A stretch of DNA of 64,000 nt from Closterium sp. NIES-65. Lineage: Eukaryota; Streptophyta; Zygnematophyceae; Desmidiales; Closteriaceae. The notes under the pieces are model-generated. The model did not search any database. It was not told where the DNA came from and was given only the letters and a program-made list of their open reading frames with translations. This document shows, one piece after another, positions 2,619-63,700 of the stretch (the first letter of the stretch is position 1; each line of letters opens with the position of its first letter). The DNA lies in assembly GCA_948144175.1 (NCBI GenBank), contig CANXME010002096.1, positions 930,001 to 994,000 on the forward strand, written 5' to 3'. A program made the translations under genes and the position numbers.

Positions 2619-5318
2619 TTACTCTCTTGAACTCCGTGCACTTGTCAGACGCATGCTTTCTCAGGTGAACTCAACAATCCCAGGTGAATTCAACAAGCCC
2701 AGGTGAATGTAAACCTCTCAGGTGAGGTCAATTCTGTCGGAAGTGCCCACTAATGACCCCTTGTCAACGTGTGTGTTGACTTGTGTGGATTCCTGGGTGC
2801 AGGTTCGCTTGCATACGTGTGCTTGCATATGCATATGCATGTGAATGTGCATGTGCATGTGAATGTGCATGTGCATGTGCATGTGAATGTGCATGTGCAT
2901 GTGCATGTGCATGTGTATGTGCATGTGAATGTGCGGGTTCATGCGCATGTGTAATATTAGCATGTGCGTTCGAGTGTTCATATATGAATGCGTACATGCG
3001 TCTGCATGAGCATGTGCACATATGCGTGCGTGTGCATGTGTGGGTGCATGCGCACGGTTCAGGTGCATATCTGCATGCCTAAACCGCCCATGGTTGGTCC
3101 CACATGGTTGACGGAAGCACAACGTAGTGACTCGGATAAAACCCGTCGTATCCTATAAGGAACCCCTTCCAATGCATCTACCTTATCTGCCAATATCTAC
3201 TTCCCCATACATCATTCTCTCACCATACCCTCGTTTCTTCCAGTCCCGTCCTTTTCCTCTCACACACTCTCAAGTCCCCCTCTGGCCGCCCCACACATCC
3301 CCTTCTCCCCTCTCCTTCATCATGATGCCTCCTCCTTGCCGTCTTAATAACATTCAAGTTGATGGACATCAGACCTTCGCAGCCCACCTGTTTACTAATA
3401 ACAGCACCCCCCTCTGGCCGCCCCACACATCCCCTTCTCCCCTCTCCTTCATCATGATGCCTCCTCCTTGCCGTGTTCGTTTTTGAGAATTCTCAAAAGT
3501 GATTTCATCATAATGCCTCCTCTCTGCCGTGTTCGTTTCCCATTCTTCTCCCTCTGCCTCTGTCCCTCAACGCGTATCCCCCGTTCTCCCATGCAGGCCC
3601 CTTCTCACCGACCCACAGCAGCAGACGTCCTCGCCTCGCCTCTCCTCCACCAACGCGCCTCTGCCTTCCTGCACGCCTGCCTGCACGCCAGTGAACATGC
3701 CCTTGAGAGTGCCCCTCTGAACGACTTAGGGAATGCCGCCACTGTTGGTGGTGCCGCTGCTGTGGCAAGGGCAGTGGCGATGCAGCGGGCAGTAAGAGAG
3801 CAGATGGGGCGACTGGGGATTGTGACAGCCCCATGTGCTAGCATCAACTCGCGTATGGCTTGCAGTGGCAGCAGCAGCAGCAGCAGCAGTGGCGGCAGCG
3901 ATCCTGCTGCTGCTGACGATGATTTGCAAGCTGGTGAGCGGACAGGGGGACTGGCTGCTGTGCAAGATGCTGGTTCTGAGGGAGGCACATCCTGTGCAGG
4001 TATACCTGGGTCAGGGCTATCTGCCACACGAGCATGTAAGGCATGTGACATGCCATCGTTGGGTATGGCTGGTGGGGAGGAGGAAGAGGAAGAGGAAGAG
4101 GAAGGGGTGGAGGAGGAAGAAGGGGGTGGGGAGGAGTGTGTGATGGTTGAGGAGGAAGGGGCAGGGAGAGCGGAGGAAGAAGAGGAGGTAATACAGGAGG
4201 CTCAAGGGATAGACCATGTGGAAGGGGAGGAGGAGGAGGAGGAGGAGGAGGAGGAGGAGGAGGAGGAGGAGGAGGAGGAGGAGGAGGAGGAGGAGGAGGA
4301 ACAACGCGAGTGGGAGGATGAGGACGAGTGGGGGTGGTGGGGGTTGGGAAAAGAGGACGAGCAAGAGGGAGAGGAGACGGATGAGGCGGAGTGGAGGCGA
4401 ATGGAGGAGGAGGATGAGGGTCGGCGGGAGTGGGAGCGAGAGCAGGAGTTGAGAGAGGAGTTTGTGCGAGAGAAGGAGGAGGAAGAGAATGAATGGGGGG
4501 AGGAGAGACGGAATGAGGAGCATGTAAAAGATGGTGGGTGGGAGGAGAGAGAGAATGGGTGGGATGAGAGGGAGGATAAATGGGGAGGGGAAGAAGAGCG
4601 AGAAGGGCATGGGACAGGACAAGTTACCTGTTGGAGTATGACGAGTCACCTGTTGGATCCAGGTCGAAACTTTATACGTATGCGAGAAGAGCATGGGACA
4701 GGTGGTGGTTGGGAGAAGGGAGAGGTTGGGTGGAGAGAAGGAGAGAATGAGGAGGTGGAACGAGATAATAAGTGGGAGGAGGGAGAGATTAGGTGGGGAG
4801 AGGGAGAGGATGGGCGGGAAGGGGAAGAGAGGCGAGAAGAGCACAAGACAGGTGGTGGATGGGAGGAGAATGGGTGGGAAGAAGGAGAGGAGGAGGAGGC
4901 GGAACGAGATGATGGATGGGAGGAAGGAGAGGTTAGGTGGGGAGAGGGAGAGGATGGGTGGGAAGGGGAAGAAGAGCGGGAAGAGCATGGGACAGATGGT
5001 TGGGAGCAGGGAGAGGATGGGTGGAGAGGAGTTAACGAGAGGATGGAACGAGATGATGAATGGGAGGAAGGAGAGATTAGGTTGAGAGATGGAGAGGATG
5101 GGCGGGAAGGTGGAGGAGAGCGGGAGGAGTGCGATAGAGGTGATGGATGGGAGGACGGAAGGACTGGGTGGGAAGAGGAGGGATATGAGCCAAAGGAGCA
5201 GCCGCAGCAAAAGCAGCTTTGGCTGCAGCAGCAGCAGCGGTGGGGAGAGAGAGAGCAGAAGGAACAGCACGAAGCAGTGAGAGAGCTGCTGACAAAGAGG
5301 CAGCAGAAGGAGCAGCAG

Positions 5319-5391
<73 letters not shown>

Positions 5392-8300
5392 GTGATTCAG
5401 AATGGCGGAAGCGGTTCGGGAACCGTGGCACGGATGTCCCCAGCACAGGGGGGCGCAGCAGGGGCAGGAGCAACTATAATGAGGAGGTGGTGCGGCATCG
5501 GTGGGCGCAGCATGGTCACGGCAGTGATATGTTAAGCTGTAGCAATCGTAGAAGCAGCAGCAGCAGCAGCAGCAGCAGGGTGGGAGGGTACGTGCATGGT
5601 CATCTGAGTGGGCACAAAGCAACACGGTGCAGCACTGGCAGCAGTTGCACCAGTACCTGTAGCAGCTGTAGCACTGACACGCTACGATGCAACACTGTGA
5701 GTAGCTGTAGCAGCTGTAGCAGCCGTAGCCGTAGCTGCCTTGGCTACCGCAGCAAGCACTCTACCGGCTGTAGCAGCGGCAGCAGCAGGTTACGATACAG
5801 TCTAGGCAGCAGCTGCTGTGACACGTCAGAGCATGGCAGTGACACGTCATCACCATCATCGTCACTAAATGTGTTGCCTCCCATCCCTTGTCCGCTGGAC
5901 CCTGCATTTATTGAGGGCCACCTGCACAAGGTTAAGGCACGGCTGGAACGGTTTGGCGTGCCTCTCAGAGACAAGCCTGTGGGAGCTGCTGCTTGCATGA
6001 AGGAGAACCTGGAGAGGATTCAGGAGCTGCTGCTGCACGTGCTGGGAGTGAAGGAGGTGCCGCAGGTCGCAAAGAGGCAGGAGCTGCTGCTGCACGTGCC
6101 GGGAGTGAAGGATGTGCCGCAGGTCGCAAAGAGGCAGGAGCTGCTGCTGCACGTGCCGGGAGTGAAGGAGGTGCCGCAGGTCGCAAAGAGGCAGGAGCTG
6201 CTGCTGCACGTGCCGGGAGTGAAGGAGGTGCTGCGGCTGACATCTGAGTCGACTCAAAAGTCACGAATGCTGGAATGGTGTGACGTGCCTCTCAGCGACC
6301 AGCCTGTGCCAGCTGCTGCTTGCATGCAGGCGAACCTGGCGAGGATTCAGGAGCTGCTGCAGGTGGGGGGGCCGAAGGAGGGGAAGAGGCCGGAGGTGGT
6401 GCAGGTGCAAGGGGGAAAAGAGCCGTCAAAAATGGCGACGAGGCAGGAGGTGGGGAAGGAGGGCGAGATGTGGGATATGCACTCCGAGACAGGTCATACC
6501 ACACCTGATAAGGCTGTGCCGGGTTATGCTGCAGCTGGTGAGGTGGCAGCAGGTGACGTCATGTCTGAGAGGGTTCGGAAGCTTCTGCAGAAGCTGCGGG
6601 AACTGAAGGAGATGGCTGGCGTGCCAAGGAAGCAGGTGGCACACACGATGCAATCAGTGCAGTCAATGCAGTCAATGCAGTCAACGCAGTCAACGCAGTC
6701 AATGCAGTCAATGATGTCAACGCAGTCCACGCAGTCAATGCAGTCAAGGATGTCAATGCAGTCAACGCAGACAACACAGTCAACCCAGTCAACGGAAGTG
6801 ACACCAAAGGTGCAGAAGCTGCGGGCAGTGGGGACACCGGAGGCACTGCGGGCCCTGCTCCGGCTGCGTAAGCTGAAGGAGGGAGCGAAGCAAGGTGGAA
6901 AGCCGGACGGAAGTTTCCAGGCGCAGGAGTCACAGGAGTTGCAGAAAGTGCGGGGGGCAGTGAGGACACCGGAGGCACTGCAGGCCCTGCTCCGGCTGCA
7001 CAAGCTGAAGGAGGGAGCAGCGGAGTGCAGGAAGGCTGGTAGGAGCTCCCCCTCACAAGAGGCTGCTGGCTGCTGCGCTGCTTGTTCACTGGCCAAGGAG
7101 CCCGGGCAGGCGCAGGGCAGGCATGGGGAGGACTGTGGGGAGGACTGTGGAGTGGGGTATGGAGATGACTGCGCAGTGGGGGCCGAACATTCCTATGGAG
7201 ATGCGCCTGGGGCGGGCTGGAGTGATGGCTGCGGAGTGGGGTGTGGAGGTGATGGTTTGGGCCAGACGTGCGGTTGGAGTGATGGCTTGGATGGCATGGG
7301 GAGTTGGCACGGAGGGGTGGGGGAAGACGTGGGTCTGACTGAAGGGGAGGAGTGTTTGGAAGGGGAGTGGTATGTAGAAGGAGAGGGGTATGGTGAAGGA
7401 GAGGGGTATGGTGAAGGAGAGGGGTATGGTGAAGGAGAGGGGTATGGTGAAGGAGAGGGGTATGGTGAAGGAGAGGGGTATGGTGAAGGACAGGGGTATG
7501 GTGAAGGACAGGGGTATGGTGAAGGAGAGGGGTATGGTGAAGGAGAGGGGTATGGTGAAGGAGAGGGGTATGGTGAAGGAGAGGGGTATGGTGAAGGACA
7601 GGGGTATGGTGAAGGACAGGGGTATGGTGAAGGACAGGGGTATGGTGAAGGAGAGGGGTATGGTGAAGGACAGGGGTATGCAGAAGAAAATGATGAGGAG
7701 ATTTCAGAAGGAGAGGGATGCATGGAGGTCAAGGGGTGTTCAGACGGGGAGACGAAGTGGGTGGGAGTTTGGCTCAGGACCGATAGAGGCTGGATCGAAA
7801 GAAAAATGTTGTCAGAGGAAGAGGAGTATACAGACGACGAGGTGACTTCTCAGTCGACTCAAAAGCCACCTCGAAACATGTCGTCAGAGGAAGAGGAGTA
7901 TAAAGACGACGAGGGGTTTAGTGATGGAGATAGTTTTGAGAAAGAAAAAGGAGAGGGAAATGCTGATGACAAGTGTGAGGAATCGGAGGCGGGTGCAGAA
8001 GCAGAGCGGTTCATTCATGGCGGTGCATTGTGCGGACGGGGCGAGGTGGGAAGCGGGGCGCATGAGGCAAGAGGAGCGGCGTTGGGAGGCATGCTGGAGC
8101 GGGTGGGCGCGCTCCTCAGGAGAGCCTGTGGGGGTGCCTGTGAGGGTGCCTGTGAGGGTGCCTGTGGGGGTGCCTGTGGGGGTGCCTGTGGGGGTGCCTG
8201 TGGGGGTGCCTGTGGGGGTGCCTGTGGGGGTGCCTGTGGGGGTGCCTGTGGGGGTGCCTGTGGGGGTGCCTGTGGGGGTGCCTGTGGGGGTGCCTGTGGG

Positions 8301-10392
8301 GGTGCCTGTGGGGGTGCCTGTGGGGGTGCCTGTGGGGGTGCCTGTGGGGGTGCCTGTGGGGGTGCCTGTGGGGGTGCCTGTGGGCCGAGCCATTGCGTGC
8401 TCTCCCAGGGTGGCTTTAAAGATTCTCACAAGTACCGTGCTGCATGTGAGCAGGGTCACTGCGTGGTGGGCACGCAGACTCACGCCATGCGCCACTCACA
8501 CCCCTGCCGCCCTGCACCTGAAGCAGCCAAAGCGGTAGGAGCAGCAGGGGCGGCAGGGGTGGCAGGGGCAGCAGGGGCGGCAGGGGGGGCAGGTGTGGCA
8601 GGGGGGGCAGGGGTGGCAGGGGCGGCAGGGGTGGCAGGGGCAGCAGGGGTGGCAGGGGCGGCAGGGGGGGCAGGGGTGGCAGGGGTGGCAGGGGTGGCAG
8701 GGGCGGCAGGAGCAACGTGCATCAAGACAGGCCTTCCAGCAAACTCTTCAGTTCACCGCATCACTCTTCCTCGAGACTGTTTGCTCCACAGGAGAAGCTG
8801 CAGGGCCGCTGACGTGGCCTGTTCACGTGGCGTGGCAGCTGTCAGTCCATATGGACACGTGGCATGTTCCCTGGCCTCTTGGAGAAGGGACAGCTGGCAA
8901 TGCAGCTGCTATGGGAGCAGCACTAGTCATGCCCACAAAAACGGATGCATCACCAGCAGATGCTATGTCAGGAGCGGATGCCATGTCAGCAACGGCTGCC
9001 ACGTCAGCAGCAGATGCCTGTTTCAAGCAAATGGGGTGGACGGTGGTAGGCCAACTCGTCACTTTGACCTTGACTGTAACAGCTCGTGTGACTGTGTAGG
9101 GGGCAGCAGCTGTGGTGGCAGCTACCATCTCCTCAACTGTGACTGTAATGAATGCTACAGATGTGACAAAAACGCGTACGAGAGTGGCTGTTGCAGGTCA
9201 CACCACCACTGTGAAACCATCCATCACTGTGTGCGCGGGCGTGGCTGTCACTCTGCATCCTGTGCTGATAGCACCTGTGGGTCTGGTGGCTCTGACAAGG
9301 GCGACCGGCATTCACGGGCCAGCCCGTGGCGGCTTCCCTCTGATGCTTTTGGCTCTTCTGGTGGGGAGGTGGCTTTTGAGTCAACTCAAAAGCACTCTGC
9401 ATCCTGTGCTGATAACACGTGTGGTTCTGCTGGCACTGAGGACGGCGACAGGCATTCACGGGCCAGCCCGTGGCGGCTTCCCTCTGATGCTTCTGGCTCT
9501 GCTGGTGGGGAGGTGGCATGGCAGCAGCAGCTTCAGCAGGAGCAGCAGCGACAGCGGCGGCAGTGGGAACGGCGGCGGGAGCAGCAGCAACAGTGGGGGC
9601 AGCACGAGCCGCAGTGGGGGCAGAGACAGGAGCAGAAACAGCAGCATCAGCAGCAGTGGGGCCAGCAACGAGAGAAGCAGCAGCGGTGGGGGCAGCAGCA
9701 GGAGCAGGAAAGGAGTCATCTGTCCCTGGTGCACTGTAAGGAGGAGGAGGAGGAGGGCGCTTTTGAGTCGACTCAAAAGGAGGAGGAGGAGGGCGCTTTT
9801 GAGTCGACTTGTAAGGAGGAGGAGGGCGCTTTTGAGTCGACTTGTAAGGAGGAGGAGGGCGCTTTTGAGTCGACTTGTAAGGAGGAGGAGGGCGCTTTTG
9901 AGTCGACTTGTAAGGAGGAGGAGGGCGCTTTTGAGTCGACTTGTAAGGAGGAGGAGGGCGTGATAGGGGCTCATATTCACACCTGCATGCAGGAACACGC
10001 GAGAGGCGGACGACAGACGCAGGAATGGGCGGGGGGCGAGAGGTGCGGCGCAAACCACCTGCTTCCCACACATTTGACTGCAGAGCGTGCAGAGCATGCA
10101 GAGCGTACAGAGTGGGCAGAACGGGCAGAGCGTGCAGAGCGTGGCAGGAGGAGGTGGAGTACTGGGGGGCAGACTCGTTATGATGACATTCACCGGCGCC
10201 CACTGCTGGGTGGGACGGACTACAGTAGTGAAACCGGGGAGCTCAATAGCGAGGATGAGGAGTCGGACTACGAGGTGGTGCGCCAGGTGGCGATGTATGA
10301 GTGGCTGCGTGCATCTTCACAGCAAGCAGCAACTCTCGAAGCAGCATGTGTCCCCACTCCTCCCAGCAACCCCTTCCCCCACCAGCAGCATG

Positions 10393-10427
<35 letters not shown>

Positions 10428-14800: not shown

Positions 14801-14864
14801 TGCCTTCCCTCGCCCCTTCCCACCTCCCCTTGCCCCGGTTCCCACATCCCCCACTCCCCGTTCC

Positions 14865-14896
<32 letters not shown>

Positions 14897-17800: not shown

Positions 17801-20237
17801 GTGCTGGCCATCTGGGTGGACCGTGCCGGCATCAAGGCCACTGTCAGTGAGGTGAGATGCTGGGGGGGATAGGGTAGGGATGGGTAGCAACTCTGCTTAT
17901 CCTTGAGCATCGCCGACCCCTCTGCCTCTCAACTTCCCGCCATCCCCATCGTTCCTCCCCCTCTCTCTCTCTCTCTCTCTGTCCCTTTCCCTCGCTCCCA
18001 TCCCCGTCCACTCACAGAACTTCACCCGTCAGAGCCGCATCACCTATGGCGCAGTGATAGAGGAGGTGACAACGCGCGATGAGAACACGAGCATCTGCAC
18101 ACACGGCTTCAAGATGCTGCCCTCCGGCCTGCCCACGCCCGACGGCCCGCCCACCACGCTCAGTGGCACCGGTGTTGACCGCGTGGCATTCCTTCAGGCA
18201 AACGTGACGCGTGATAACACCAACTTTGTCAACGGCACGCCTGTTGGCGACCGTACCATTTTCCAGGTGAGAAGGCCAGGAAACAGGCACAGGTCATGAG
18301 GTGCTGCCCCCGATGGCCCGCCCACCACACTCAGCGACGCTGGTGTGGATCGCGTGGCGTTCCTGCAGGCCGGTGTCAAGTGCAACAACACCACGTTTGT
18401 CGTCAATGGCACGCCTGTTGTTGTCAATGTCAATGTCTGGGCATCGGGTCAGCCTTCCCATTCTTCAACCGCCATCAGCTGACGCACACGCGCTTCATGC
18501 AGCTCAGCGAGGAGGACGTGGACCGAGTGGAGCCCCTTGACCGCCTTGACTTCCTTGACCCCTCCTTATCTGCAGCTGCTGGTGCCCGTTCGATGTGTTT
18601 CAACTCCCGTTTCCCAACCCCCCTCTCCCCTTTCCGGCTCCTGTTGGCGCCACAGGTGGACCAGGGTCTGGGCATCGGGTCAGCCTTCCCATTCTTCAAC
18701 CGACATCAGCTCACGCACACGTGGTTCATGCAGCTCAGCGAGGAGGACGTGGACCATGCGGACCGCTCTTCACCGGCTTCACTGCCTTGACCCCACCCTA
18801 ACTGCCGCTGCCGGTGTCAGTTCGATGTGCTTCAACTCCCATTTCCTTACCCCTCTCTCTTCATTCCGGCTCCCCCTCGCCCCACAGGTGGACCAGGGTC
18901 TGGGCATCGGTTCGGCCTTCCCCTTTTTCAACCGGCATCAGCTGACGCACACGCGCTTCATGCAGCTGAGTGAGGAGGACGTGGACCATGCGGACCGCCC
19001 GCCCATGGTGGGGGTGCTGCACGCGCGCTACGGGGGGTGCATGGGCGACCTGCCGTCGTATGAAGCGTATGCGCTGGGCGGGCCTTATTCCGTCCGCGGG
19101 TACAACATGGGCGAGATTGGAGCTGCCAGGCGCTTCCTTGAGGTGAGTGCTTTGAGGGGGGAGAGGGGGTCAGGGGGGAAGGATGGAGCTAGTGTGTGTG
19201 TGTGGTTGTGTGTCTGGGAGTGTTGACCGCCCGCCCATGGTGGGGGTGCTGCACGCGCGCTACGGGGGGTGCCTGGGCGACCTCCCATCCTACGAGGCGG
19301 TATGCGCTGGGCGGGCCGTATTCGGTCCGCGGGTACAACATGGGCGAGATTGGCGCCGCCAGGCGCTTCCTTGAGGTAAGTGTATTGGGTGGGGAGAGAG
19401 GGATGGGTGGAGAAAGTGTGTGCGCCTTGGGGTGCCTGGGCGACCTGCCGTCGTACGAGGCGTATGCACTGGGCGGGCCGTATTCGGTCCGCGGGTACAA
19501 CATGGGCGAGATTGGAGCCGCCAGGCGCTTCCTTGAGGTGCGTGGCTGGGTTGGCCTATGGTGGTGTTGATGTGCCTCAGGGGCTGTCTGGGTGCTCGAG
19601 GTGCTTGGGGTACTTTGGGGTGTCTGCTGGGAATTTTTTGAGAATTCTTGACGTTGCTGGGAGTTTTTGAGAATTCTTGACGTTGCTGGGAATTTTTTAG
19701 AATTCTTGACGTTGCTGGGAATTTTTGAGAATTCTTGACGTTGCTGGGAGTTGGTGAGAATTCTCAAAAACTCCCTGGGCTGCCTGGGAGTTCGAGGTGC
19801 TTGGGGTACTTGGGGGTGCCTGCTTGTGTGCGTATGTGTTGTGTGTGAAAGTTGGGATCTGGGAGGAGGCCACCCACTCTCATCTTTCTCCCAGCTCGTC
19901 CTGCTTGGCCTTCCTTCCATCGTCCTCTCTCAACTCCTCATTAACGTTTCCCTTATCCCTGCCTTCTCTATTTACTTGCCCCCATTATCCCTCTCAGCTT
20001 GCGGGTGAGATCAGGGTCCCAGTCAAGACCACCCATGCCTATGCCTTTGCTGAGATGGCCTCTGACCTTGGCAGCTCCGGTATGGTTTCTGGTAACCCTA
20101 CTGAGTTCTTCCGCCGAGCCGGCTTCGGAGCCTCGGTGGGTGCTGGTGTCAGGCTCGGCACCGTGCGTGCGGAGTACGCTCGGGATTGCAACATGGGCAC
20201 TGGCTCATGGTTTGTCCGGTTCGGCGAGAGGTTCTAA
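11851..20237 (+). CDS. TOC75: Toc75, chloroplast outer-envelope protein import channel
   Basis: Omp85-family beta-barrel that forms the preprotein channel of the TOC complex in the outer plastid envelope. Eleven exons join in phase: 11851-11897, about 12262-12805, 13546-13797, 14915-15211, 15368-15523, 15923-16141, 16647-16754, 17194-17388, 18018-18266, 18888-19142, 19998-20237, giving about 853 residues (land-plant Toc75-III is slightly over 800). Seen in order: a transit region with a Gly-rich stretch and an acidic/Lys-rich linker; POTRA repeats (KRYRVADVDL, ANMASSGMFQMVEAD, KIRDRILKWYHDKGYACA, VINFGNLNTPDIVCEVVEGD, GNVFNIEAGRKAL); then barrel strands (DDLVFKLEYVHPYIDGVDD, CFNHRKVSAVFTGGP, GPPTTLSGTGVDRVAFLQAN, DQGLGIGSAFPFFNRHQLT, YALGGPYSVRGYNMGE) and the terminal FVRFGERF. 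The first two exons are uncertain: the acceptor at 12261 is chosen because it restores frame. Introns hold many exon shards. No strong alternative identity. Confidence 0.93.
12799..12895. repeat. exon-2 donor junction shards (Toc75)
   Basis: The exon end and donor (GCATGCGG/GTGAGACTGGG) is repeated twice more (from about 12830 and 12861), each followed by TTCAGCC or TTCAACC and CTTAT or TTTAT. Period about 31-38 bp. Confidence 0.85.
13309..13470. repeat. exon-3 acceptor-side shards (Toc75)
   Basis: Diverged partial copies of the exon-3 start: GCTGAGCACGACGAAGCCC near 13332 and GGCACGCGCGTGGCGGTAGA near 13434. They precede the real exon at 13546. The second reads into a stop. Confidence 0.8.
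13871..14224. repeat. exon-3 donor-side shards (Toc75), three copies
   Basis: Copies of the exon end encoding EAEVAKMASSGMFQMVEAD and the following DGSIK occur at 13871-13958 and 14021-14107. Both keep a GT donor. A shorter third copy is at 14171-14224. The real exon ends at 13797. Confidence 0.9.
14405..14774. repeat. exon-4 acceptor-side shards (Toc75), two copies
   Basis: CAG plus the exon start (LEVKVLEAQWQA) occurs at 14405 and 14621 before the complete exon at 14915. The first copy breaks off after about 90 bp, the second after about 150 bp. Confidence 0.9.
14866..14895. repeat. C30 homopolymer
   Basis: Thirty consecutive C residues 19 bp before the exon-4 acceptor of Toc75. Confidence 0.95.
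16211..16504. repeat. exon-6 shards (Toc75), one with in-frame stop
   Basis: 16211-16346 repeats the second half of exon 6 (EVNPRPDDQLEGGIVMEVKV onward) up to a GTAAGC donor, but AAG TGA replaces the GAG TGG of the real exon. A third, shorter copy starts at 16441. Confidence 0.88.
17061..17851. repeat. exon-8 shards on both sides of the real exon (Toc75)
   Basis: 17061-17129 copies the acceptor and exon start (DDLVFKLEYVHPYIDGVDD). 17505-17622 and 17739-17851 copy the exon end (CFNHRKVSAVFTGGPSLDE to KATVSE) with GTGAG donors. The complete exon is 17194-17388. Confidence 0.92.
18296..18790. repeat. exon-9 and exon-10 shards (Toc75)
   Basis: 18296-18530 is a mosaic: an exon-9-like part (PPTTLSDAGVDRVAFLQA in the best frame) runs directly into an exon-10-like part (LGIGSAFPFFNRHQLTHTR). 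18656-18790 repeats the acceptor and start of exon 10. The complete exon 10 begins at 18888. Confidence 0.88.
19226..19538. repeat. exon-10 donor-side shards (Toc75), two copies
   Basis: Both copies encode the end of exon 10 (GDLPSYEA, GGPYSVRGYNMGEIGAARRF) with GTAAGT or GTGCGT donors. The first has an extra base after GAGGCG that breaks the frame. Confidence 0.9.
19625..19790. repeat. tandem array of half palindromes, GAATTC core
   Basis: Four or five diverged units of about 29 bp (TTTTTGAGAATTCTTGACG plus TTGCTGGGAA), ending in a nearly complete palindrome at 19748-19773 (TGAGAATTCTCA with AAAACTCCC). The same architecture as the 33-bp GTCGAC-core array in the kinase gene. Confidence 0.9.
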
Positions 20238-21650: not shown

Positions 21651-21707
21651 ATTGAGAAAGCTTGCTTTCTTGTCCTTATAATTTGGCATCGTTCTCATTG
21701 CAACTGG
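21651..21707. repeat. B1 repeat of the YR retrotransposon
   Basis: 57 bp abutting A2. It overlaps the last codons and the stop of the recombinase ORF. Confidence 0.9.
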
Positions 21708-22744: not shown

Positions 22745-22761
22745 GGCGCGTACATTCTCAA

Positions 22762-24855: not shown

Positions 24856-25008
24856 ACGGACGGTTTGTCGTCATTCCATATAGGGCGTCCGATCGCACCT
24901 TGGCAAACTCTTTCTCATACTCTCTCCTTTTCCCTCCCCTCGTTTTTTTTTTTTTTTTTTTTTTCTGGAGGATTGATGCTTGGGACCATGATCATGCTTC
25001 CCTCGTGT

Positions 25009-25079
<71 letters not shown>

Positions 25080-25718
25080 CTTTCTCTCTCCCTCTCTTTT
25101 TGGATGTGTTTCCATTGTTGTTTGAGCATTTGCATGCTTCGCTTGTCATGAGCTCGTGTCTTTTCGCGCGTGCCTTTACTTGGGCTAGGCGACATCGCTA
25201 TGCCCTACTCCCCCCCCCTTGCTCCTTCTCACCCTTTTTGGGCTTCCAACGGTTGAACCAGGGCTGCTCATCCTTGCCATGCATGGTGGCGGTTTGAGTG
25301 AGGAGCGTACGTACTCTCTTTTTCTCCCTCTCCCCTTCTCCTCCTTTTTTTTTTTTTTTTTTTTTTTTTAATCCGTGACAAACAAGAGGGGCCTTTAATA
25401 AAATCCCTATCTCTCATGGTCATACATTGTCATGCCTACTAGCATGTTTCTCATCCTATCAATTGGGGCATACGGGGGACCGAGAGGCATTCTTCCTCTT
25501 CCCCAAAGCTAGACCTACGGCCATACTTTATTACCCTATCCTAGGGGACCGAGAGGCATTCTTCCTCTTCCCCAAAGCTAGGCCTATGGCCAACTTCTAC
25601 CACCCTATCCTAGGGCTGGCCATGGCCACCGCAAGCCCTACTAGGCTGCCCACGGTCTAAGCACTCAAAAGTGCACCGTGCATCGCGCCTAGAGGCGCGC
25701 TTCACCATAGCCCGAACC
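24856..25718. other. spacer between gag and RT with simple repeats
   Basis: Contains a T run of over 20 (24943-24964), a long CT dinucleotide tract (25012-25080), a second T run (about 25346-25369) and a tandem duplication of about 65 bp (GGGGACCGAGAGGCATTCTT... at 25474 and 25543). No coding signal seen. Confidence 0.75.
25012..25080. repeat. (CT)n microsatellite
   Basis: About 33 CT dinucleotides with one late interruption (CTCGCTC). It produces spurious SLSLSL/RERERE frames on both strands. Confidence 0.97.
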
Positions 25719-29035: not shown

Positions 29036-29154
29036 CTTGCTCGTGTATGATCTAAAACAACGTCGTAACTAGCAAAGGCCTGCTGAAGTGAGAACCGTTG
29101 GAAGTGGGTGCAGAATGCAAGGACGTAGATGATAGCGGTGATCGCTGTGTTGCG

Positions 29155-29161
29155 TTTTATA
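29155..29161 (-). promoter_or_regulatory. TATA box of LCIB copy 1
   Basis: TATAAAA on the minus strand about 120 bp before the ATG, at the same place as in copy 2. Confidence 0.65.
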
Positions 29162-33610: not shown

Positions 33611-33619
33611 AATTTCCCC

Positions 33620-52700: not shown

Positions 52701-55700
52701 GGCAGTTAGGAATTTTCGGAAGTAGATAAACAGGGGGGACGGAGGCGGAAGAAGAAAATGCATTGCTGCCCCTTTGCTGTTGCCCGCCTCCTCTCTGCAT
52801 GGTTGACCTGGCGTTTGCTGAGATCTATGACCTTGCGAACATGACACAGCGGACATGCCACCCCCCACCCTCTCCCTTCCTCCCCCTTTGGCATTCCAAG
52901 AGGGCCTGTCCGACAGCAGGGGTATCTTTTACCGAGCGTTTGATGAGATCTATGGCCTCATACACTCGGGACTAATCCCCACACGACTCCTCCTTTCCTC
53001 CCCACCTCTTGTGATGAGTCGATTTTTGAGTCGACTCAAAAATCGACTCATCACACGGCTCCTCCTTTCCTCCCCACCTCACCTCTTGCGCCATTTCAGG
53101 AGGGCCCATCTCACGATCGCGGCGTCTTCTACCGAGCGTTTGATGAGATTTACGATCTTGCCAACTCAACCTACGCCCCCGCTGACAGCTACACCTTCCA
53201 CGTCAGCGTGCTCGAGATGTTCAATGAGCAGGTGAGGAGGTGTGGAGGGAAGGAGAGGGTGGGGTTGGAGGGTTGAGAACAGGTGAGGGTGGAGATTTGG
53301 TGTAGGTGGCGGCGACGGGACGGGGGAGCTGTGAGGCAGGTAGTAGAGAGATCCACGACCTCGCCTACTCAACATACATACGCCCCTACTGACAGCTACT
53401 CCTTCCATGTTAGTGTGCTCGAGATGTTCAACGAGCAGGTGAGGAGGTGTAGAGGGGAGGAGGTGGGATATTTCTGAGTGTTTTCAAGGTATTTTTTAGA
53501 ATGTTTTGAGAATTCTCAAAAATAGCCTGGGGCTCAGGGGGAACAGGGGCGGAGGGTGGTACAGATGTGCAGTGAGCAGGTGAGGAGGGGTGGGGGTGGG
53601 GTGGGGTGGGTTAGTTGAGTGGAGTGAAGAGAGCTGTGAGGCAGATAATTGAGATGTGAAACGAGCAGAGGGGTGGGCGAGCTGGATTTAGGGGCTGAGG
53701 GAACGGCTGATGCAGGAAAGTAGAGGAAGGGGACTGACAACGGAGGGGGGAGGGTTGCGTTTCATCGGTTCATCTCACCTCCGTCTTCCCCTTTTCTCCC
53801 GTTTCTCCCGTTGTGCGTGCCACAGCTGAGCGACCTGCTGGTGAACCCCTTGCAGGCCGGCCATGGGTCCTTGGGCAAGGTGGAACTCGTGCATGGGGGG
53901 CCGGGAGGAGGCAGCGGAGCAGCAGCAGGGGGAGGAGGAGCAGGCGCAGCAGGAGGAGCAGGAGTAGGAGGGGGTGTGGGGGGGGTGGGGAGAGGTGGAG
54001 GTGCGGGGAGTGAGGGAGGAGGCGGTGAGCAACCCGATGGAGTATGCCAAGGTGGTCAAGACAGCTCTGCAGCACCGGGCGGCAGGGGGAGGTGCATCTG
54101 GGGGAGGTGGGCTCGTTGGCGACAGCAAGGAGCGCAACAAGCTCTCCCACTTGTGAGTCTCTTCACTTGCCGGCTCTTGTAAGCTCTAAGCTCCTCTGCC
54201 GTGCTTATAGGCTCTTTTGCCCCTCCTCCCCGGGATAGTACTGCACGCACACCACAACTACCCGGTGTATGGCCAAGGAGCCGATTGCTAATGGCAGACC
54301 CTTTTTTTCAACCCCCCCGCCAACTCCCCCCCTTCCCCCCCTGTGACTGCACCCCAGGGTGGTGATAGTGCGAGTGCATCACGGCGACCCAGTGACAGGA
54401 GAGCAGCAGAGCAGCAAGCTGCTGCTGGCGGATCTCGCCTCCAGCGAGCGCCTCCTCCGCCTCATCCAACCCTCCGGCCATCCACCGTCCCACTGGCCGC
54501 TCTGTGTGTGGCTGCACCTCAGGGTGGTGATACTAGTGCACGTGATGGCCGAGAAGCTGATCGCAAATGGCATACCCTGCCCCCTCCACCCCGACCAACA
54601 CTCCCTCTCGCCCTCTGAATCCCCACCAGGGTGGTGATAGTGCGAGTGCATCACGACGACCTGGTGACAGGAGAGCAGCAGGACAGCAAGCTGCTGCTGG
54701 CAACTAACTACCCCATGACCCCCCATGCTCCACCACCTTCTGTTACCTCGTTTTGAACCCTCCCAGGGGTGGTGATTGTGCGAGTGCATCACGACGGCCC
54801 AGTGACAGGCGAGCAGCAGGACAGCAAGCTGCTGCTGGCGGATCACACCCACCCCTCCCCCCCTCCCCCCTTTCCCCCCTTTCCCCCTTCACTGTACACA
54901 CCAGGGTGGTGATAGTGCGAGTGCATCATGACGACCCAGTGACAGGAGAGCAGCAGGACAGCAAGCTGCTGCTGGCGGATCTCGCCTCCAGCGAGCGCCT
55001 CCTCGCCTCCTCCTCTGCCTCGGGGGACCGCCTCACCGCCTCGCTGCACGTGCAGAAATCCTTCTCAGCGTACGATAATGTTGGTTGATGGGGTGGGTTG
55101 AGGTGGGGTGGGGTGGGGTGGGGTGGGGTGGGATGGGTTGATGTGTCAAGTTCTCTGTGGTATGGTCTGTGCTGCTCATACATCCTCCTCCGCCTCGGGG
55201 GATCGCCTCACCGCCTCGCTGCACGTGCAGAAGTCCTTCTCAGCATACGGTGCTGTTACTGGGTGGGGAGTAGAGTTCTCTTTGATATGTCGTGTGCTGT
55301 TCAAGCATCCTCCTCCGCCTCGCCTCGGGGGACAGGCTCACTGCCCCGCTGCATGTGCAGAAGTCCTTCTCAGCGTACGGTGCTGCTGAGTCCTTCTTAA
55401 TTGATTGTTTGCTGTTCTGAAGTCTTTCTCAGCGTACAATGCATGCGTTCTCGGCGTGTCGTGTTGTGTTGAGTCCTTGCGCGGCTGTGCTGTTCAACCT
55501 GCAGGCTGGGCGACTGTCTGTCTGCACTCACGGGCAAGCGTCCCACCGTGCCGTACGGCAACTCCAAGCTCACCATGCTGCTCTCCGACTGCCTCGGTAC
55601 GTAGGGGGATGCCTTGGTGCATGGTCCAACCAATACTTTTTATGAGAATTCTCTGTTATATGATGCAATTGCCTCCAAGCTCACCACGGTGCTCTCTGAC

Positions 55701-58700
55701 TGCCTCAGTATGCTGTTTCAGCGTGCATTGATGCGTGACCCTGTACCTCTTGTGTTTTGAGTCGACTCAAAACACACATTGATGCGTGACCCTGTACCTC
55801 TTGAGAATCTCCAAATACAAGGTACAGGCGTGGCGTTCCAGTGCTTTTCTGGGCCGTAGTTTTTCCCAGTTCCCATGCAAGGTGTAGCGCATGCCTCTAG
55901 TGCCAGGTCCTCCCATCCCGTGCCATGCCAGCATCCTCTGTGAAAGACGCTTGGATTAGAATGTTTGTGCCTGTGCTTCTCCTCTTCCTCACGTTTTTGA
56001 GAATTCTCAAAAACCAGCTGGATTAGAATGTTTATGCCTGTGCTTCTCCTCTTCCTCACGTTCCCCCCCTTCACACTCTCCCTCTCTTTTAAACCGGCAG
56101 GCGGTGAGGCCAAGCTGCCAGGTGTAAACCCGAGTCACTACCACGGCTCTCAGGTTGAAAACACTGGCTCAGGAGGTCTACCCTCACCCTCCCGCCTCTC
56201 CCTCCCTTCCCTGTATGTACGGCCACCAGGCGGCGGGGCCAAGACGGTGGTGGTGGTGACGTGCAGCCCGTCAGTGAGGGACGCTTAGAATCAGTGCGCC
56301 CTCACGTTCCCTCTCTCCTCGCTATCCTCCCGTCTCCTTTCTCCCTTGCACCACCAGGCGGTGGGGCCAAGACGGTGGTTGTGGTGACGTGCAGCCCGTC
56401 AATGCCCGGATGTGGCAGAGTCGGTGGCTAAGCCCGTCCGCATCCCCACTTGTGTCTACCTCCTCTCTCTCCTCCTCCCTCACCTTGCCAGGAGGTGAGG
56501 CCAAGACGGTGATGGTGGTGACGTGCAGCCCGTCCGTGAAGGACGTGGCAGAGTCGGCTCTCTCGCTGGCCTTTGCTGCCCGCTCGCGCAACTCCGAGCT
56601 CAGCCTCGGCACTCGTGACACCATCAAGAAGTGGCGCGACATGGTGGGTCCGTTGGGGTTGGGCATAGTGTGTGGGTGGGTGGGTGAGTGGCCGGGCGGT
56701 TCAGCCTGTGACAGCTTTGAGAGGCTGTGACCTGAGGGAGGTGTTTGAGAGTGAGAGGCGGGTGGCATGGGCGATGGAGCGCGGAAGTGCTGTAACGCGC
56801 TGAAGAGCCGCGTTCTTGTATCCTCCCTTTCTCCCCATCCTTTCAGGCGACTGACGCATGGAGGGAGGTGTTTAAGAGCGAGAGGCAGACAGCAGAGGCG
56901 CAGCAGGAGCTGCTGCTGCTGCTGCTGCTGCCATATGTGTTGAGTTTCACCGTGATTTCCTCCCCCTCTCCCCCCCCATCTTTCCTCCCCAGGCGAATGA
57001 TGCAAGGAGGGAGGTGTTTGAGAGCGAGAGGCAGACAGCAGAGGTGCAGCAGGAGGTGCTGCGGCTGAAGGACGCCCTAAGGGCGAGCGAGCAGACGGGG
57101 TGTGTGCTGCTCACCGAGCTGCAACGCGCCTGGGCCCAGGCTGGCCTGGTGGAGGCGCAGCACCACGCTGAAGTGGAGCGGCTCATGGTGAGAACGGGAG
57201 TAGGGAGAGGGTTTGAGGGAGAATAGGGTGGGTAAGCATTCATGTGTGAGTGAAGGTATGGGCCCAGGCTGGCCTGGTGGAGCCTCAACACCACACTGAA
57301 GTGGAGCGGCTCATGGTGAGCCGGGGGGGGGGGGGGGGGCGGGGAGGAAGAGGGTGTGGATGGGTGAAAGTGAAGGACAGACAGACGTAATGTTTCGTCG
57401 TAATCCTCCTGGGCTCAGGCTGGAAAGGTGGTGGAGAAGGGGAGGGCAAGGCTGGAAAGGAGGAGAAGAGGAAGGAAGGATGTGTGTGTGAGTGTCTGGG
57501 TATGGCCCTATGCCTTGACATCCTCTCTCTAAGACCATGATGCTGCAGGGTGTTTTTGAGAATTCTCAAAAACACCCTGCAGCATCATGGCTCTGTGCCT
57601 TGACATCCTCTATCTGAGCTTGTGTTCACTTCCCCGTGTTTCCCTCCCTCTGCTTGCAGGCTGAGGTGGCAGCAGGGGTGGAGGCACAGCGGCGGATGGA
57701 GGAGGAGTGGGAGACTCGAGCAGTGCTGGAGGGGGCTAAGACCGTGAGGGAGCACGAGGAGGAGATGGAGCGCGTGCAGCAGCAACACATTGCGGAGATA
57801 GAGGCGTACAAGGTGATGCAGAGGGGTGCAAGGTGATGCAGAGGGGTGCGATGTGATGCAGAGGGGTGCAAGGTGATGCAGAGGGGTGCAAGGTGATGCA
57901 GAGGGGCGCAAGGTGACGCAGAGGGGTGCAAGGTGATGTAGAGGCGTGCAAGGTGATATAGAGGGAGGTGATATGGAGGCGTACGTGGTGATATGGAGGC
58001 GTACGTGGTGATATAGAGGCGTACGTGGTGATATGGAGGCGTACGTGGTGATATAGAGGCGTAATGGGAAGTGGCAGCCTAAATGCCAGCAGCAATGGAA
58101 AGCATCTCGCTTTCTTTTCCAAGTTCGTCCTCTTGCACCTCTCTTTCTCTAACCCCCTCCACTCCTTCCCCCCCACAGGTCCAAGTGGAGCAGCTGCACG
58201 GGCGGCTGGCAGAAGCAGCCGAAATGGCGGCGACGGTGGCGGCACTGCGCCGCCCGCAGGAGGATTCAGCGGAGGTGGCGGAGCTGCGGCAGCGGTATGA
58301 AGCAGCGGTGCAGAAGATGACAGCTTATAAGAACGAGCTGGAGAAGAGTGAAGCGCTCACCAGGGTGTGTATGGGCCACCGGGGTATGTGAGGGTGAGGA
58401 ATGCCTGTTGGGCCTTAGAGGGTTGGGGGTGGGAACCTGGAAGGCAGGCAGGCTGGACTGGATGCCTGCAGCGGGAGAGCGACTTGAGTGCGGCGGCGGT
58501 ACGAAGCAGCAGTGCAGAAAATGACGGCGTACAAGAATGATGCCACCAGAGTATGCATGGATCGGGGATGCCTGTTGAGCATTGGGAGGGGTAGAAGTTG
58601 GAAGCTTTTGAGTCGACTCAAAAGTCACCTGTTGAGCATTGGGAGGGGTGGAAGCTGGAAGCTGTGGCTCTCTCCCTGCAGTTGGAAGCTGGAAGGCGGC

Positions 58701-60759
58701 TGGATGTTTTGGTTGCGTACAGGGAGAGAGCCACTGCAGTGCAGGGAGAGAGCCACTGCAGTGCAGGGAGAGAGCCACTGCAGTGCAGGGAGAGAGCCAC
58801 TGCAGTGCAGGGAGAGAGCCACTGCAGTGCAGGGAGAGAGCCACTGCAGTGCAGGGAGAGAGCCACTGCAGTGCAGGGAGAGAGCCACTGCAGTGCAGGG
58901 AGAGAGCCACTGCAGTGCAGGGAGAGAGCCACTGCAGTGCAGGGAGAGAGCCACTGCAGTGCAGGGAGAGAGCCACTGCAGTGCAGGGAGAGAGCCACTG
59001 CAGTGCAGGGAGAGAGCCACTGCAGTGCAGCGCTGTGAGGTAGTGTTCAAGAGGGAGCTATGTTGATGCTACTTTTGAGAATTTTTCAAAAGTAGCATGA
59101 ACATAGCTGGAGAAGAACAAAGCGCTCACCAGGGTTAGTTGCTGCTGCTCACGCTGAGAGGTTGAACTTCGGAGTCTGTGGCAAGAGAACAGTTCAGCAC
59201 AGACATGCACAAGAATGTTATGCAAACTGCAAAAAGTCTTACTCATGACTGGTAGACTTTGGAGTCTGTGGGAAGAGCTAGACGTTTCTACAGAAGCTGG
59301 GGGTTGTGTGTGTTTGCAGTAGTGCATAGGTTGAGGAGCTATGGCATGGCAGCGGCTAAGTTGGAATATACGCTTAACACCTTAAGCGTACAGCGTATGT
59401 ACGCTAGCGTACACACGCTATCCACTAGCGAATACGCTATACGCTCTTAGATTTTTTTAGGGCTGCCCGAAAAAAAATTCGCAAAAAAGATGCGGATTTC
59501 CTAGGTGAGCATTTCGCCGTAGTCGAAATTCAAATCCGCGGTCCAGGCAAACGGGGATCTGACGAAGTCGTCAGGCAAATGTTGAATTTCAGATCCCATC
59601 TAGGCATTGAAATCCATCCCTTCTACCGCATTGAACCCCACTTTATCTACAAACTCCAACCTGTCAAAATTAACCCCCCAACAAATCTCGCGGTACTTAC
59701 CAGCCAGCCCTGTTGGCTAACCCTAACTCGTCATTTGGTTCCCGCTTTCACCAGAGTTCACTCACGCTACTTCGCTTTCTAGCTATTATGTCTACTCCAC
59801 CTCCCATTGCATTCGGCATTCGGATTCAGGATTATGCAAGGGCAAGCCTTAGTGAGAATAGGGAGTACTTTTATTTCACCCTGCCCGGAAAGTTTTTTCT
59901 CTGCCCGAAAAAGCGTATCTCCAAAACGAACCCCTAAGCGGATAGCGTATGTACGTTAGCGTATATACGATACGCGAATATACGCTGTACGCGTATATTC
60001 CAACTTAGGGCAGCGGTATGAGAACAAGCTGGAGAAGAGAGACGCGATCACTGGGTGGGACGGCAGAACTGGCGGCCTGCTATCTCTCGCCTGGAGATCA
60101 CAGGGTGCGTCTGAACGTCTCTTCCCAGTTCCCTCAAGTCTAACCCGTTCCCCTCCCCCACCTCCCTTCCCTCTCCTTCCTCCCCCCCACCACCCTTCTT
60201 CCCCTGTTTTTTAGGAGCTGAATGCGGAGAATGCCAGTCTGCTGTCTCGCCTCGAGGCCACCAACAGTGCACTGGTGAGCTTTCGCCCAGGCTGGATTTG
60301 TCTGAGGTTGACTAAGGTTGTCTTAGTAGAATCACTTTGTGGGCATTCCCCGAGGGGTTCTAATCCAGTATAGCTGGTGGTGAGCTTTCAGAGCGCAGGC
60401 TGAACATTCAGTTCGCGTGGTCTACTCCACTCCATAGGTCTGAGAAACTCGACTCTTCAGGTGCTTCGGAACGAGTGTGCGTCCATGCTTTGAGATGCCT
60501 CAGAACTCTCTTGACACACCCCACCATCTCCCCTGCATGTCAACACAACTCCGCATCTCCCACTGAATCCAGTGCTATCCATTGCTCACTCTGTTCCTCC
60601 TCGTCCTTCTCTTCTTCTCCCCTCCAGGCTGCTCTCGAGAATTCCGCCCTCATGAAGGTGGACGCTCACGTCCAGGCTCAGGCTCAGGCACAGGCAGTCA
60701 CTGCGAATGGCACAGCGGGACATGGGGATGGAGGCGCAGGGGCAGGCGACGGGACTGTG

Positions 60760-60796
<37 letters not shown>

Positions 60797-63700
60797 GGCA
60801 GGGGAATGGAGGGAAGCAGGGGGTTCCTGCTGCCGCTGCCGCCGCTGCTGCTGCTGTTACGAGAGTGGGTGCAGGGGGGTTGCAGTCGCAGCAGCAGGTG
60901 GGGAGCGGTGGTGGGGAGTGGGAGAGGCGGAGGGACGAGGTGGTGGGGCGGATGAATAGGGTGATGGTGGATGCGCAGAGCGATGCTGCTGCTCTGGCTG
61001 AGGAGAGCAACGCGTGCTTGAGAGAGGTGCGTGGTGGAGAGCCATGGTGAGTGGTGGAGAGCGGTGGTGACTGGTGGATAGCAGAGGTTGATTGTGCGAC
61101 CATGCCATTACGGGAGTGCACGAGCAACAGCATGCCCACACTAACTCCCACCCCCTTCCCCGATCTTGCTTCAAACCCCTCCTTCCCCCATCCGTCCACT
61201 ACACTCTTCTCCGTCCTTGGCCAATCAGATGCTCACAGCTGTCGCCGCTTTGCCAGCTGGCAGCGAGGAGGAGGGGCGGGCAGCAGAGGAGGTGCGGGCG
61301 GCGGTGGTGGCGCTGCTGGCGTGGGCGCATTCCAAGGCGCTCTCTCTTGAATGGCCGTTCGTGTCGTGCGCCCGCCTGCTGCTGCTGCGCGTGCTGCGCT
61401 CCAAGTCAGCCGATGTGCAGTCCAGTAAAGTGAGTAGGGGGAGCGAAGTGAGTGTGGGGAGTGAAGTGAGGTGAGTGCGGAGGGGGCTTTTGAGGCTCCT
61501 CAAAAGCTGTCTGCTGCTGCTGCGTGTGCTGCGCTCCAAGTCAGCCAATGTGCAGTCCAGTAAAGTGAGTGTGGGGAGGAGGGGAAGAGGGGAGAGGGAT
61601 GGGGGGGATGGTTGAGGTGCTTCAATAAGCCGCCTGCTGCTGCTGCGTGTGCTGCGCTCCAAGTCGGCTGATGTGCAGTCGACTAAACTGAGTGGGGGAC
61701 AAGGGGGTAGCGGGCGGGGGGAACCAAAGGGGACTCAAATGAAGCATCAATCTCTCTCGCCTCCCCTCCCCTCCAATCCTCCCTCCCACCAGGTACCAGC
61801 AATCGAGCGGTTCCTGGAGAAAGCCCTACCGCAGCCGGCCAAGCCCGCCCTGCAGAAGAGCTCCACGTTTGCTCTCCCCACCACCGCCACCCCCGATCCT
61901 GGCTCCACCCTCCGCACGTTCCGCCTCGACCTCAAGCTGCCGGGGGGGGGGAAACAAGGGGGTCGACACGAGGACTCAAAGAAAGCATCAATCTTTCTTG
62001 CCTCTCCCTCCACTGTACCCTTCCCTCCCACCAGGTCCCGGCAATCGAGCGGTTTTTGGAGAAAGCCCTACCCCAGCCGGCCAAGCCCGCTCTGCAGAAG
62101 AGCTCCACGTTTGCTCTCCCCACCACCGCCACCCCCGATCCTGGCTCCACCCTCCGCACGTTCCGCCTCGACCTCAAGCTGCCGGGGGGGGGGGAAACAA
62201 GGGGGTCGACACGAGGACTCAAAGAAAGCATCAATCTTTCTTGCCTCTCCCTCCACTGTACCCTTCCCTCCCACCAGGTCCCGGCAATCGAGCGGTTTTT
62301 GGAGAAAGCCCTACCCCAGCCGGCCAAGCCCGCTCTGCAGAAGAGCTCCACCTTCGCACTGCCCACCACCGCCACCCCCGCGCCCGGCTCCACCCTCCGC
62401 ACGTTCCGCCTCGACCTCAAGCTGCCGGGGGGGGACAAGGGGGCAGCGGGCGCGGGCGCAGGAGGTGGGGGGAGTGCGAGCATTGCGGACCGGCGGGGCA
62501 GTGCATCGTTCCGCCTGCCGTCGTTCCGAGCCGGTGGGAAGAAGGCCGCGGGCGCAGGAGGGAACTCTGCGGTTAAGGTGTGGTGGTCGTTGCTTGCTCT
62601 CCCCAATGCACATTCGCGTTTGAATTGTGTTTCCACTTGTTGGCACAAAGCATGACTTTTGAGAGTTATATAGAAAAAAAACGCTCTTTTGAGAATTCTG
62701 GAAGTGATTCAGATATACATGCATGCTGCTACTGTGGTGCTCCCGCACCTCCTACACTTGTAATCCGCCTGTTGCTGTCACACATGGCGCACAATCCCAC
62801 GTGTCTATGCCCAACTCCTCTGAAGCACGCCTTTCTAAGGTTGAATCACACCCCGTGCACTGCTGAACCGCGCACACCACACCAGGTGTCAGAGGCACGG
62901 ATCAGGAAGATCTGGCAGGAGGCAGCAGACCATGCCAAGGGTTATAAGGAGCTTCGAATCACACTCCCCTGAATCACACTCCTCTGAATCACACTCCTCT
63001 GAATCACACTCCTCTGAATCACACTCCTCTGAATCACACTCCTCTGAATCACACTCCTCTGACTCACACTCCTCTGAATCACACTCCTCTGAATCACACT
63101 CCTCTGAATCACACTCCTCTGAATCACACTCCCCTGAATCACACTCCCCTGAATCACACTCCTCTGAATCACACTCCTCTGAATCACACTCCTCTGAATC
63201 ACACTCCTCTGAATCACACTCCTCTGAATCACACTCCTCTGAATCACACTCCTCTGAATCACACTCCTCTGAATTACACTCCTCTGACTCACACTCCTCT
63301 GCGTCACACCCCGTGCCGTGCAATGCCACACCACACACCAGGTGTCAGAGGCACGGATCAGGGAAATCCGGCAGGAGGCAGCAGACCACGCCAAGGGACA
63401 CAAGGAGCTAGCCCTAGTGTTCGCTCACGTTGCTACCGCCAAACCCACCGCCACCACCACCACCACCCCGCTCTCCCACCCCTCCTCGCTCCCCGCTGAC
63501 CTCATCGCCCGCGTCGCTGACGTCACCAGCCTGGAGCAGCGAGTGCTGCAGTGGATCGGATCGCAGTTTGGATTCTGGGCGGCGAGCGAGCCGCCCAGGG
63601 ACGCGCAGGAGGACGTGGTGGCGGTGGCGGCGGCGGTGGTGGAGGGGTGGCGGGAGGGGCTGGGCACGTTCATGAGATACAGTGAGGATGCTCTGGGGCA

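Follow-up and report, generated by a model that had tools for sequence, protein, structure and literature searches.

Palindromes with flanking duplications

The stretch of DNA analyzed here (the window) comprises 64,000 nucleotides of the streptophyte alga Closterium sp. NIES-65 (contig CANXME010002096.1, positions 930,001 to 994,000) and carries a family of short palindromes, most of which stand between two direct copies of the neighbouring DNA, called X and X' in the following. An earlier reading of this stretch, made from its letters alone (the sequence-only reading), had listed 16 palindromes with a common core consisting of TTTTGA, a 6-bp palindrome and TCAAAA. This core is exact in 12 of the 16, the copies at 6242, 7847 and 19748 being mutated and 44358 belonging to a related core class, TTTTTTAG-GCGC-CTAAAAAA. 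A search of the window for exact TTTTGA-N6/7-TCAAAA likewise yielded 12 cores, including one with a 7-base centre at 59073, and the exact core was found in none of 100 order-1 Markov resamplings of the window and on average 0.01 times in 100 order-3 resamplings. The core is therefore real, but it is better described as TTTTGAG-N4-CTCAAAA with a usually self-complementary N4, and the assertion that it is invariant went too far, as decayed copies lie at 6242, 7847, 55640 and 2183. When folded as single strands, three copies from the window form hairpins, with z values from -5.2 to -11.7. Taken together with the duplications described below, the family is confirmed for the window, and its copies are compiled in Table 1.

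Table 1. Copies of the palindrome family in the window and the repeats around them (X and X', left and right copy of the duplicated DNA).
Range	Structure	Remarks
3448..3538	X 3448-3482 / palindrome TTTTGAGAATTCTCAAAA 3481-3498 / X' 3504-3538	X and X' identical at 32/35
5942..6360	mutated palindrome ATCTGAGTCGACTCAAAA 6242-6259	flanked by diverged duplications 5942-6033 / 6269-6360; range also holds 57-bp tandem array 6021-6231; shift 327 = 3 x 109; within long open frame
7801..7914	X 7801-7842 / insert 7843-7872 with mutated GAGGTGAC-type palindrome / X' 7873-7914	shift 72, in frame
9249..9517	X 9249-9373 (125 bp) / TTTTGAGTCAACTCAAAA 9374-9391 / X' 9393-9517	shift 144, in frame
9745..9960	palindrome CTTTTGAGTCGACTCAAAAG 9760-9779	heads 33-bp tandem array; array units carry decayed copy
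19625..19769	29-bp tandem array, GAATTC-class units	near-palindrome TGGTGAGAATTCTCAAAA 19752-19769 at array end
41102..41209	X 41102-41139 / 32-bp insert 41140-41171 (palindrome 41142-41171) / X' 41172-41209	X and X' identical at 38/38
44290..44451	X / ATTTTTTAGGCGCCTAAAAAAT 44358-44379 / X'	related core class; X and X' about 80-85% identical
52980..53080	X 52980-53008 / 46-bp perfect palindrome 53010-53055 / X' 53052-53080	
53504..53521	GAATTC-class palindrome	no duplication detected
55562..55710	decayed copy TTATGAGAATTCTCTGTT 55640-55657	in spacer of diverged duplication 55562-55599 / 55673-55710
55726..55803	X 55726-55752 / 26-bp palindrome 55751-55776 / X' 55777-55803	
55952..56062	X 55952-55995 / palindrome 55993-56014 / X' 56019-56062	
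57502..57618	X 57502-57533 / 53-bp insert 57534-57586 / X' 57587-57618	56-bp perfect palindrome 57535-57590
58571..58663	X 58571-58606 / palindrome 58605-58624 / X' 58628-58663	
59056..59108	17-bp arms (one mismatch) around TTTTGAGAATTTTTCAAAA 59073-59091	no duplication found
61376..61594	X 61376-61461 / CTTTTGAGGCTCCTCAAAAG 61487-61506 / X' 61511-61594	within 135-bp imperfect tandem repeat

Using a score of at least 20, a direct X/X' duplication was detected at 10 of the 12 exact cores of the window compared to 9.5% of 1500 random centres (Fisher p 4e-9), and the non-exact cores at 7847 and 44358 are flanked in the same way. At 6242 the duplication is detectable only at longer range, 19748 is part of a 29-bp tandem array, and no duplication could be detected at 53504 and 59073. 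Conversely, 15 duplications in the window enclose an insert of 10-60 bases; nine of these hold a core, three others lie within tandem arrays and three (5652, 16006 and 17045) are coreless, which indicates that such duplications also arise without a palindrome in the Closterium genome. As a separate observation, many tandem duplications in the region 13711-19544 lack the palindrome; they measure about 45-230 bp and include 14617-14774/14911-15068 as well as 18536-18766/18768-18998.

The enrichment at duplication junctions, which the sequence-only reading had proposed to test against controls, holds in the window and extends beyond it. Sites with the centre TCGA were sampled in listing order up to C16:110170, leaving out later array sites on C16 and C18, which gave 24 loci and 26 distinct sites, of which two share an array. 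At a score of at least 13, 25 of these 26 sites show a duplication (one of them, L009, as a long poor alignment) compared to 73 of 288 control centres taken from these loci, and at a score of at least 20 the values are 20/26 and 65/288 (Fisher p 4e-8). For a subfamily with longer arms, 28 loci were reduced to 21 distinct ones by merging homeologous pairs, and duplications were found at 16 of the 21 versus 35 of 160 controls with the lower threshold and at 11 versus 16 of 160 with the higher one. A duplication beside the palindrome is thus usual, but not universal.

At the 49 sites with a score of at least 16, X measures 16-125 bp with a median of 35, a spread that argues against an integrase working with a fixed ruler; at locus L034 the repeat is 11 bp long and within the range given by the controls. 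X and X' of the 49 sites differ at 104 of 2033 bases, with 18, 33 and 53 mismatches in the successive thirds of X. Most of the sites examined consist of a single X-palindrome-X' unit, and we therefore rejected the idea that tandem arrays are the whole story.

Abundance in the genome

All genome-wide counts refer to an assembly of 874,075,685 bases in 2400 contigs, in which the window corresponds to G000:C1798:930001-994000. TTTTGAG-N4-CTCAAAA occurs exactly 30,327 times, units of tandem arrays included, and the reversed pattern 4 times. The centre is TCGA in 13,080 of them, GCGC in 5,851 and AATT in 2,601. Among the first 50 cores listed, some of which lie in arrays, N4 is self-complementary in 46 (TCGA 22, ACGT 12, GCGC 10, AATT 2), and in the remaining 4 the centre is one base off self-complementarity. 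The density of cores is patchy, with 4 in 200 kb of tiles from the same contig versus 11 in the window. In these tiles, TTTTGAG outside palindromes stays at the shuffled level (22 versus 22.4). Copies with long arms on G000:C879 and C1788 were seen about 10.26 kb apart, as if they were part of a 10.3-kb tandem repeat.

A source in viruses or prokaryotes was rejected, since the TCGA core has no match among viral contigs and the one 22-mer of the TCGA subfamily searched, ACTTTTGAGTCGACTCAAAAGT, has no exact match in GTDB genome contigs. The AATT core has 6 matches in viral contigs, in 5 of which the arms measure just 10-11 bases. A 34-bp palindrome around TTTTGAGAATTCTCAAAA on an IMG/VR contig of 57% GC (L006:12905-12938) is probably unrelated.

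An empty site in the homeologous region

A search of the genome with window positions 55500-58700 retrieved a homeolog on the reverse strand of contig C305. In the alignment, this contig has an empty site at 57535, where the 32-bp target is present once and the palindrome is missing. Positions 1-2034 of the query match C305:25574-27666 and positions 2088-3201 match C305:24572-25605, so that the 32 bases shared by both matches (C305:25574-25605) serve for X and X' alike. Compared to this empty copy, changes are seen at positions 10, 26 and 30 of X and at positions 6, 9 and 10 of X'; the change at position 10 is common to both and says nothing about the insertion event. A comparison of the left 300-base flank gave 90 mismatches, probably due to an indel, and could not be used. 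The idea that X and X' mutate at birth is suggested by this locus, but we do not claim it; setting X/X' mismatches against mismatches in the arms gave no clear answer, since matching itself defines the arm ends.

The other six of the seven window sites compared with C305 are filled there, as judged from the alignment for 55751, 55993, 58605 and 59073 and from matching alignment lengths for 41142 and 44358. At 55751 the BLAST pieces suggest one extra X-palindrome unit in C305. The palindromes at 55993, 58605 and 59073 are present in both homeologs, with the centre TGGA at 58605 in C305. For the coding sites, a single gapped alignment pairs 3762 query bases with 3851 bases of C305 and is not resolved by site. 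Over half of the orthogroups of NIES-65 are duplicated according to text excerpts of the genome paper (PMC10407611), and the contig used for comparison comes from such duplicated segments. Protein-based searches for presence or absence of the palindromes in other strains found nothing. Next to the compared sites, about 650 bp at 59356-60008 are absent from C305; the flanking matches share 8 bases, and this segment looks like a transposon insertion.

The empty site, the number of exact cores and the spread of subfamilies over many contigs agree with the suggestion in the sequence-only reading that the palindrome is mobile.

Arms and centre

According to the sequence-only reading, the outer arms copy local sequence. 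This turned out to be incorrect, as the arms are subfamily sequence that recurs elsewhere and only 0-5 bases per joint agree with the local DNA. The 56-bp palindrome at 57535 matches at least 37 other places, most of them over 41-55 bp at 94-100% and a few over shorter stretches or down to 82% identity, and a snap-back origin of the arms from local DNA was rejected on this ground. In the same manner, the long-armed copies L059-L078 (20 copies at 15 distinct loci) mostly follow one arm consensus, about ATGATGCTGCAGGGTGTTTTTGAGAA, and are cut at different points on the two sides, and the arm of the common TCGA subfamily is about CGAGGTGACTTTTGAGTC, mirrored. Of 56 tabulated sites, 36 have a shorter or equal tail that forms an exact suffix of the opposite one, and many of the remaining 20 are arrays or nested copies with poor boundaries. 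A shared consensus in combination with unequal tails means that the arms are part of the element and that its ends are ragged. The full length amounts to about 36 bp in the common TCGA subfamily and about 56 bp in the ATGATGCTGCAGGGTG subfamily.

Copies are trimmed from the outside, and the centre survives. The single arm GCAGGGTGTTTTTGAG has 340 matches, and in 151 the match extends through the exact centre into the beginning of the second arm; copies whose arms are both long enter twice in both counts. The first 10 single sites that are in the list of 340 and absent from the list of 151 represent 8 distinct loci, with two near-identical pairs. In all 10 of these one-arm copies the centre is preserved and the second arm is mutated or shortened, so that none is a half-element; the search did not extend to fragments made up of outer arm only.

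Microhomology at the joints

Microhomology was counted as flank bases that continue the consensus, for tails matching the consensus exactly. A first count of 33 tails gave a mean of 2.0 versus 0.46 +/- 0.15 in the null. A second count, of 39 tails, excluded the array locus L050 and a further four eligible tails and yielded 1.79 versus 0.39 +/- 0.12 after permutation, the largest of 10,000 permutations reaching 0.92. The loci counted also supplied the consensus strings, and full independence is lacking for three that are homeologous or related. The signature of end joining proposed in the earlier reading is thus supported by the joints.

Copies in a long open frame

Four copies (6242, 7847, 9374 and 9761) lie in the mechanically called open frame 3468-11147, and the shifts, 327, 72, 144 and 36, are all multiples of three. 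At eight other sites the shift is divisible by three in four; these include 3481 (shift 56), which lies at the very start of the frame and was grouped with the presumed non-coding sites. With such small numbers, selection for the frame is only suggestive.

Other features of the window

The window begins with a 40-bp satellite (1-1461, 36.5 copies, 97% matches). On the minus strand, 21695-26927 encodes a tyrosine recombinase (PF00589), a reverse transcriptase with RNase H and a zinc-knuckle protein, which we take to be a DIRS-type retrotransposon by its gene set. Three tandem units of an LCIB/LCIC-type gene follow at 27641-36445, with PF18599 in the two frames scanned and similar frames repeated. 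For the LCIB-like protein encoded by 28283-29035, the best match is a Closterium sp. NIES-65 protein with 100% identity that covers 99% of the query, by which the window is nuclear DNA of a desmid.

Discussion

Small tandem duplications from the repair of staggered breaks are reportedly the subject of work on rice and Arabidopsis by Vaughn and Bennetzen in 2014 and Schiml et al. in 2016. In mouse and human cells, tandem duplications linked to fill-in by CST-Pol alpha are likewise short, variable in length and attributed to staggered breaks; the excerpts of that source describe no conserved element at the junction, whereas in Closterium one family is found there thousands of times (PMC8355091). 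The Closterium sites share the direct duplication of variable length and the microhomology at the joints with the filler of such repair events, but filler should be unrelated between events and here belongs to a single family. Foldback inverted insertions at breaks in yeast measure 5-34 bp and use microhomology; according to excerpts of the report they copy sequence beside the break, whereas the Closterium insert is a dispersed family (PMC11724301). The organelle palindromes of Volvox carteri are also short and numerous and are treated, in the text excerpts of their description, as selfish DNA of unknown mobility, but their sequence is another one, they carry 3-5-nt loops, mostly TAAA/TTTA, their nuclear copies were judged inert transfers, and the same excerpts mention no long flanking duplication (PMC2670323). 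The Volvox loop is absent from the Closterium family with its centres TCGA, GCGC, ACGT and AATT.

Short or long interspersed nuclear elements would be expected to end in an A-rich or simple 3' tail. The Closterium inserts read for this feature end within the palindrome, but a run of A is part of the core, and the last bases of one insert (L047) are GCAAAA. Truncated copies that lack the far end together with the centre, as likewise expected for such elements, do not occur among the 10 one-arm copies. Miniature inverted-repeat transposable elements (MITEs) are likewise short, non-coding, present in high copy number and equipped with inverted symmetry and a target duplication. They have an internal region, defined ends and short target duplications of fixed length. 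In Closterium the length of X is not fixed, the left and right tails are unequal within single insertions, and in the copies read the arms meet at the centre instead of enclosing an internal region. Bacterial repetitive extragenic palindromic (REP) sequences and the palindromic elements of Rickettsia are also short, palindromic and numerous, but prokaryotic. The Rickettsia elements lie in frame inside genes, and we know of no long target duplication for either group. The family could not be matched to a known kind of mobile element, and its nearest relatives each fail at least one of the features tested, though no search aimed at a coding relative was made. Among the open-licence matches listed, judged by title or the start of the abstract, we found no description of such elements for algal nuclear palindromes, palindrome-linked duplications, Closterium, or palindromic insertions with variable target duplications. 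The main text of the NIES-65 genome paper does not contain the word palindrome, as far as the excerpted text goes (PMC10407611).

The palindrome is inserted, as seen at the empty site; it brings a duplication of variable length at most copies, has ragged ends with a preserved centre, and is joined with microhomology. The best explanation, which we hold to be probable though far from certain, is that short palindromic DNA is captured by microhomology-mediated joining in staggered breaks with filled-in overhangs. According to this model, very short, loopless, palindromic elements without coding capacity would spread in the Closterium nuclear genome via staggered double-strand breaks. Two nicks on opposite strands, tens of bases apart, would create overhangs, and fill-in at both ends would duplicate the interval as X and X'. 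Palindromic DNA, either duplex or hairpin, would be joined between the ends by 0-5 bases of microhomology, while its outer ends are trimmed and the centre survives, yielding X-palindrome-X'; later repeat expansion could turn this product into a tandem array. The free palindromic intermediate, the enzymes for fill-in and alternative end joining, and the source of the breaks are presumed parts of the model. Small tandem duplications via fill-in of overhangs and end joining have been shown in mammalian cells, as stated in excerpts of that study (PMC8355091). We favour insertion of whole palindromes because the spread of X, the retention of the centre and the shared arms tell against an integrase, arbitrary pieces of template and snap-back, respectively.

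Several points weigh against capture. The model leaves the dominance of one family as filler unexplained, and neither free palindromic DNA or RNA nor the enzyme it presumes has been observed. Microhomology is weaker in the common subfamily, with means of 1.0 (17 tails) and 1.6 (9 tails) for its two versions, than in the long-armed copies (3.0, 13 tails). Half-sites, with TTTTGAG outside palindromes, are more frequent in the window than after shuffling (17 versus 10.2), 8 of the 17 sitting in two arrays. No duplication was detectable at 53504 and 59073 in the window or, with a score of at least 13, at 5 of the 21 distinct long-armed loci. Control regions are often duplicated too (22-25% at the same threshold), because the Closterium genome is rich in tandem repeats. 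A single empty site was found among the 7 sites compared with C305, and there X and X' each differ from the empty copy at 3 of 32 bases, while the 62 bases adjoining each side of the target differ at 1, which a simple model does not predict.

Instead of being captured physically, existing copies could serve as template: a break end would prime by microhomology on a palindrome in hairpin or cruciform shape, copy round its tip and rejoin the other, filled-in end. This templated insertion seems less likely to us, but deserves attention. It would produce the microhomology observed, a hairpin-shaped template would account for the kept centre, and short foldback insertions at breaks are known from yeast, as described in excerpts of PMC11724301. 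A linear template, however, should often yield pieces without the centre, which none of the 10 one-arm copies is, and the choice of this palindrome family as template is left unaccounted for.

A shrunken, MITE-like DNA transposon with a transposase binding the palindrome is doubtful. The conserved core, the subfamilies, the high copy number and the empty site would fit, but the duplications of 16-125 bp, the ends that are ragged and unequal on both sides and the missing internal region between inverted repeats do not. It appears still more doubtful that the palindromes came first and later provoked duplication of the adjoining DNA by fork stalling and slippage. Tandem arrays of X-palindrome units and the copies without detectable duplication are in line with such an order of events; on the other hand, the palindrome and the second copy are absent together at the sole empty site, and nearly all TCGA sites in the sample carry the duplication. 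Slightly less weight still is given to the idea that a short palindromic RNA is retrotransposed through target-primed reverse transcription, with widely spaced nicks leading to long, variable duplications. Variable target duplications and microhomology at the joints are among the traits of this process, but early termination should stop copies before the centre, and the one-arm copies do not show this. The published NIES-65 assembly, which we take to be the one analyzed, was built with Canu/Arrow from PacBio Sequel reads according to excerpts of PMC10407611. An assembly or library artefact is very improbable, as X and X' often differ by substitutions, the same palindromes occur in two homeologous contigs, and four copies within the long open frame keep the frame.

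Going one step further than capture, we tentatively consider the family as a self-spreading repair scar, that is, a parasite of double-strand-break repair without an enzyme of its own, which would persist because short palindromic DNA would be the favourite patch of the cell for staggered breaks. Palindromic hairpins or duplexes would be released from, or copied off, existing copies, and each patched break would add a copy and double the target, so that the element and the tandem duplications of the host would grow together. If this is true, a mobile sequence would depend on end joining for its spread, and not on a transposase or a reverse transcriptase, in a lineage that is sister to the land plants, with copy numbers able to shape genes, as seen from the copies in an open frame, and to seed tandem arrays. 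The formation and filling of staggered breaks would then be recorded naturally at thousands of places in the Closterium genome, and the origin of small tandem duplications would become testable through comparison of strains.

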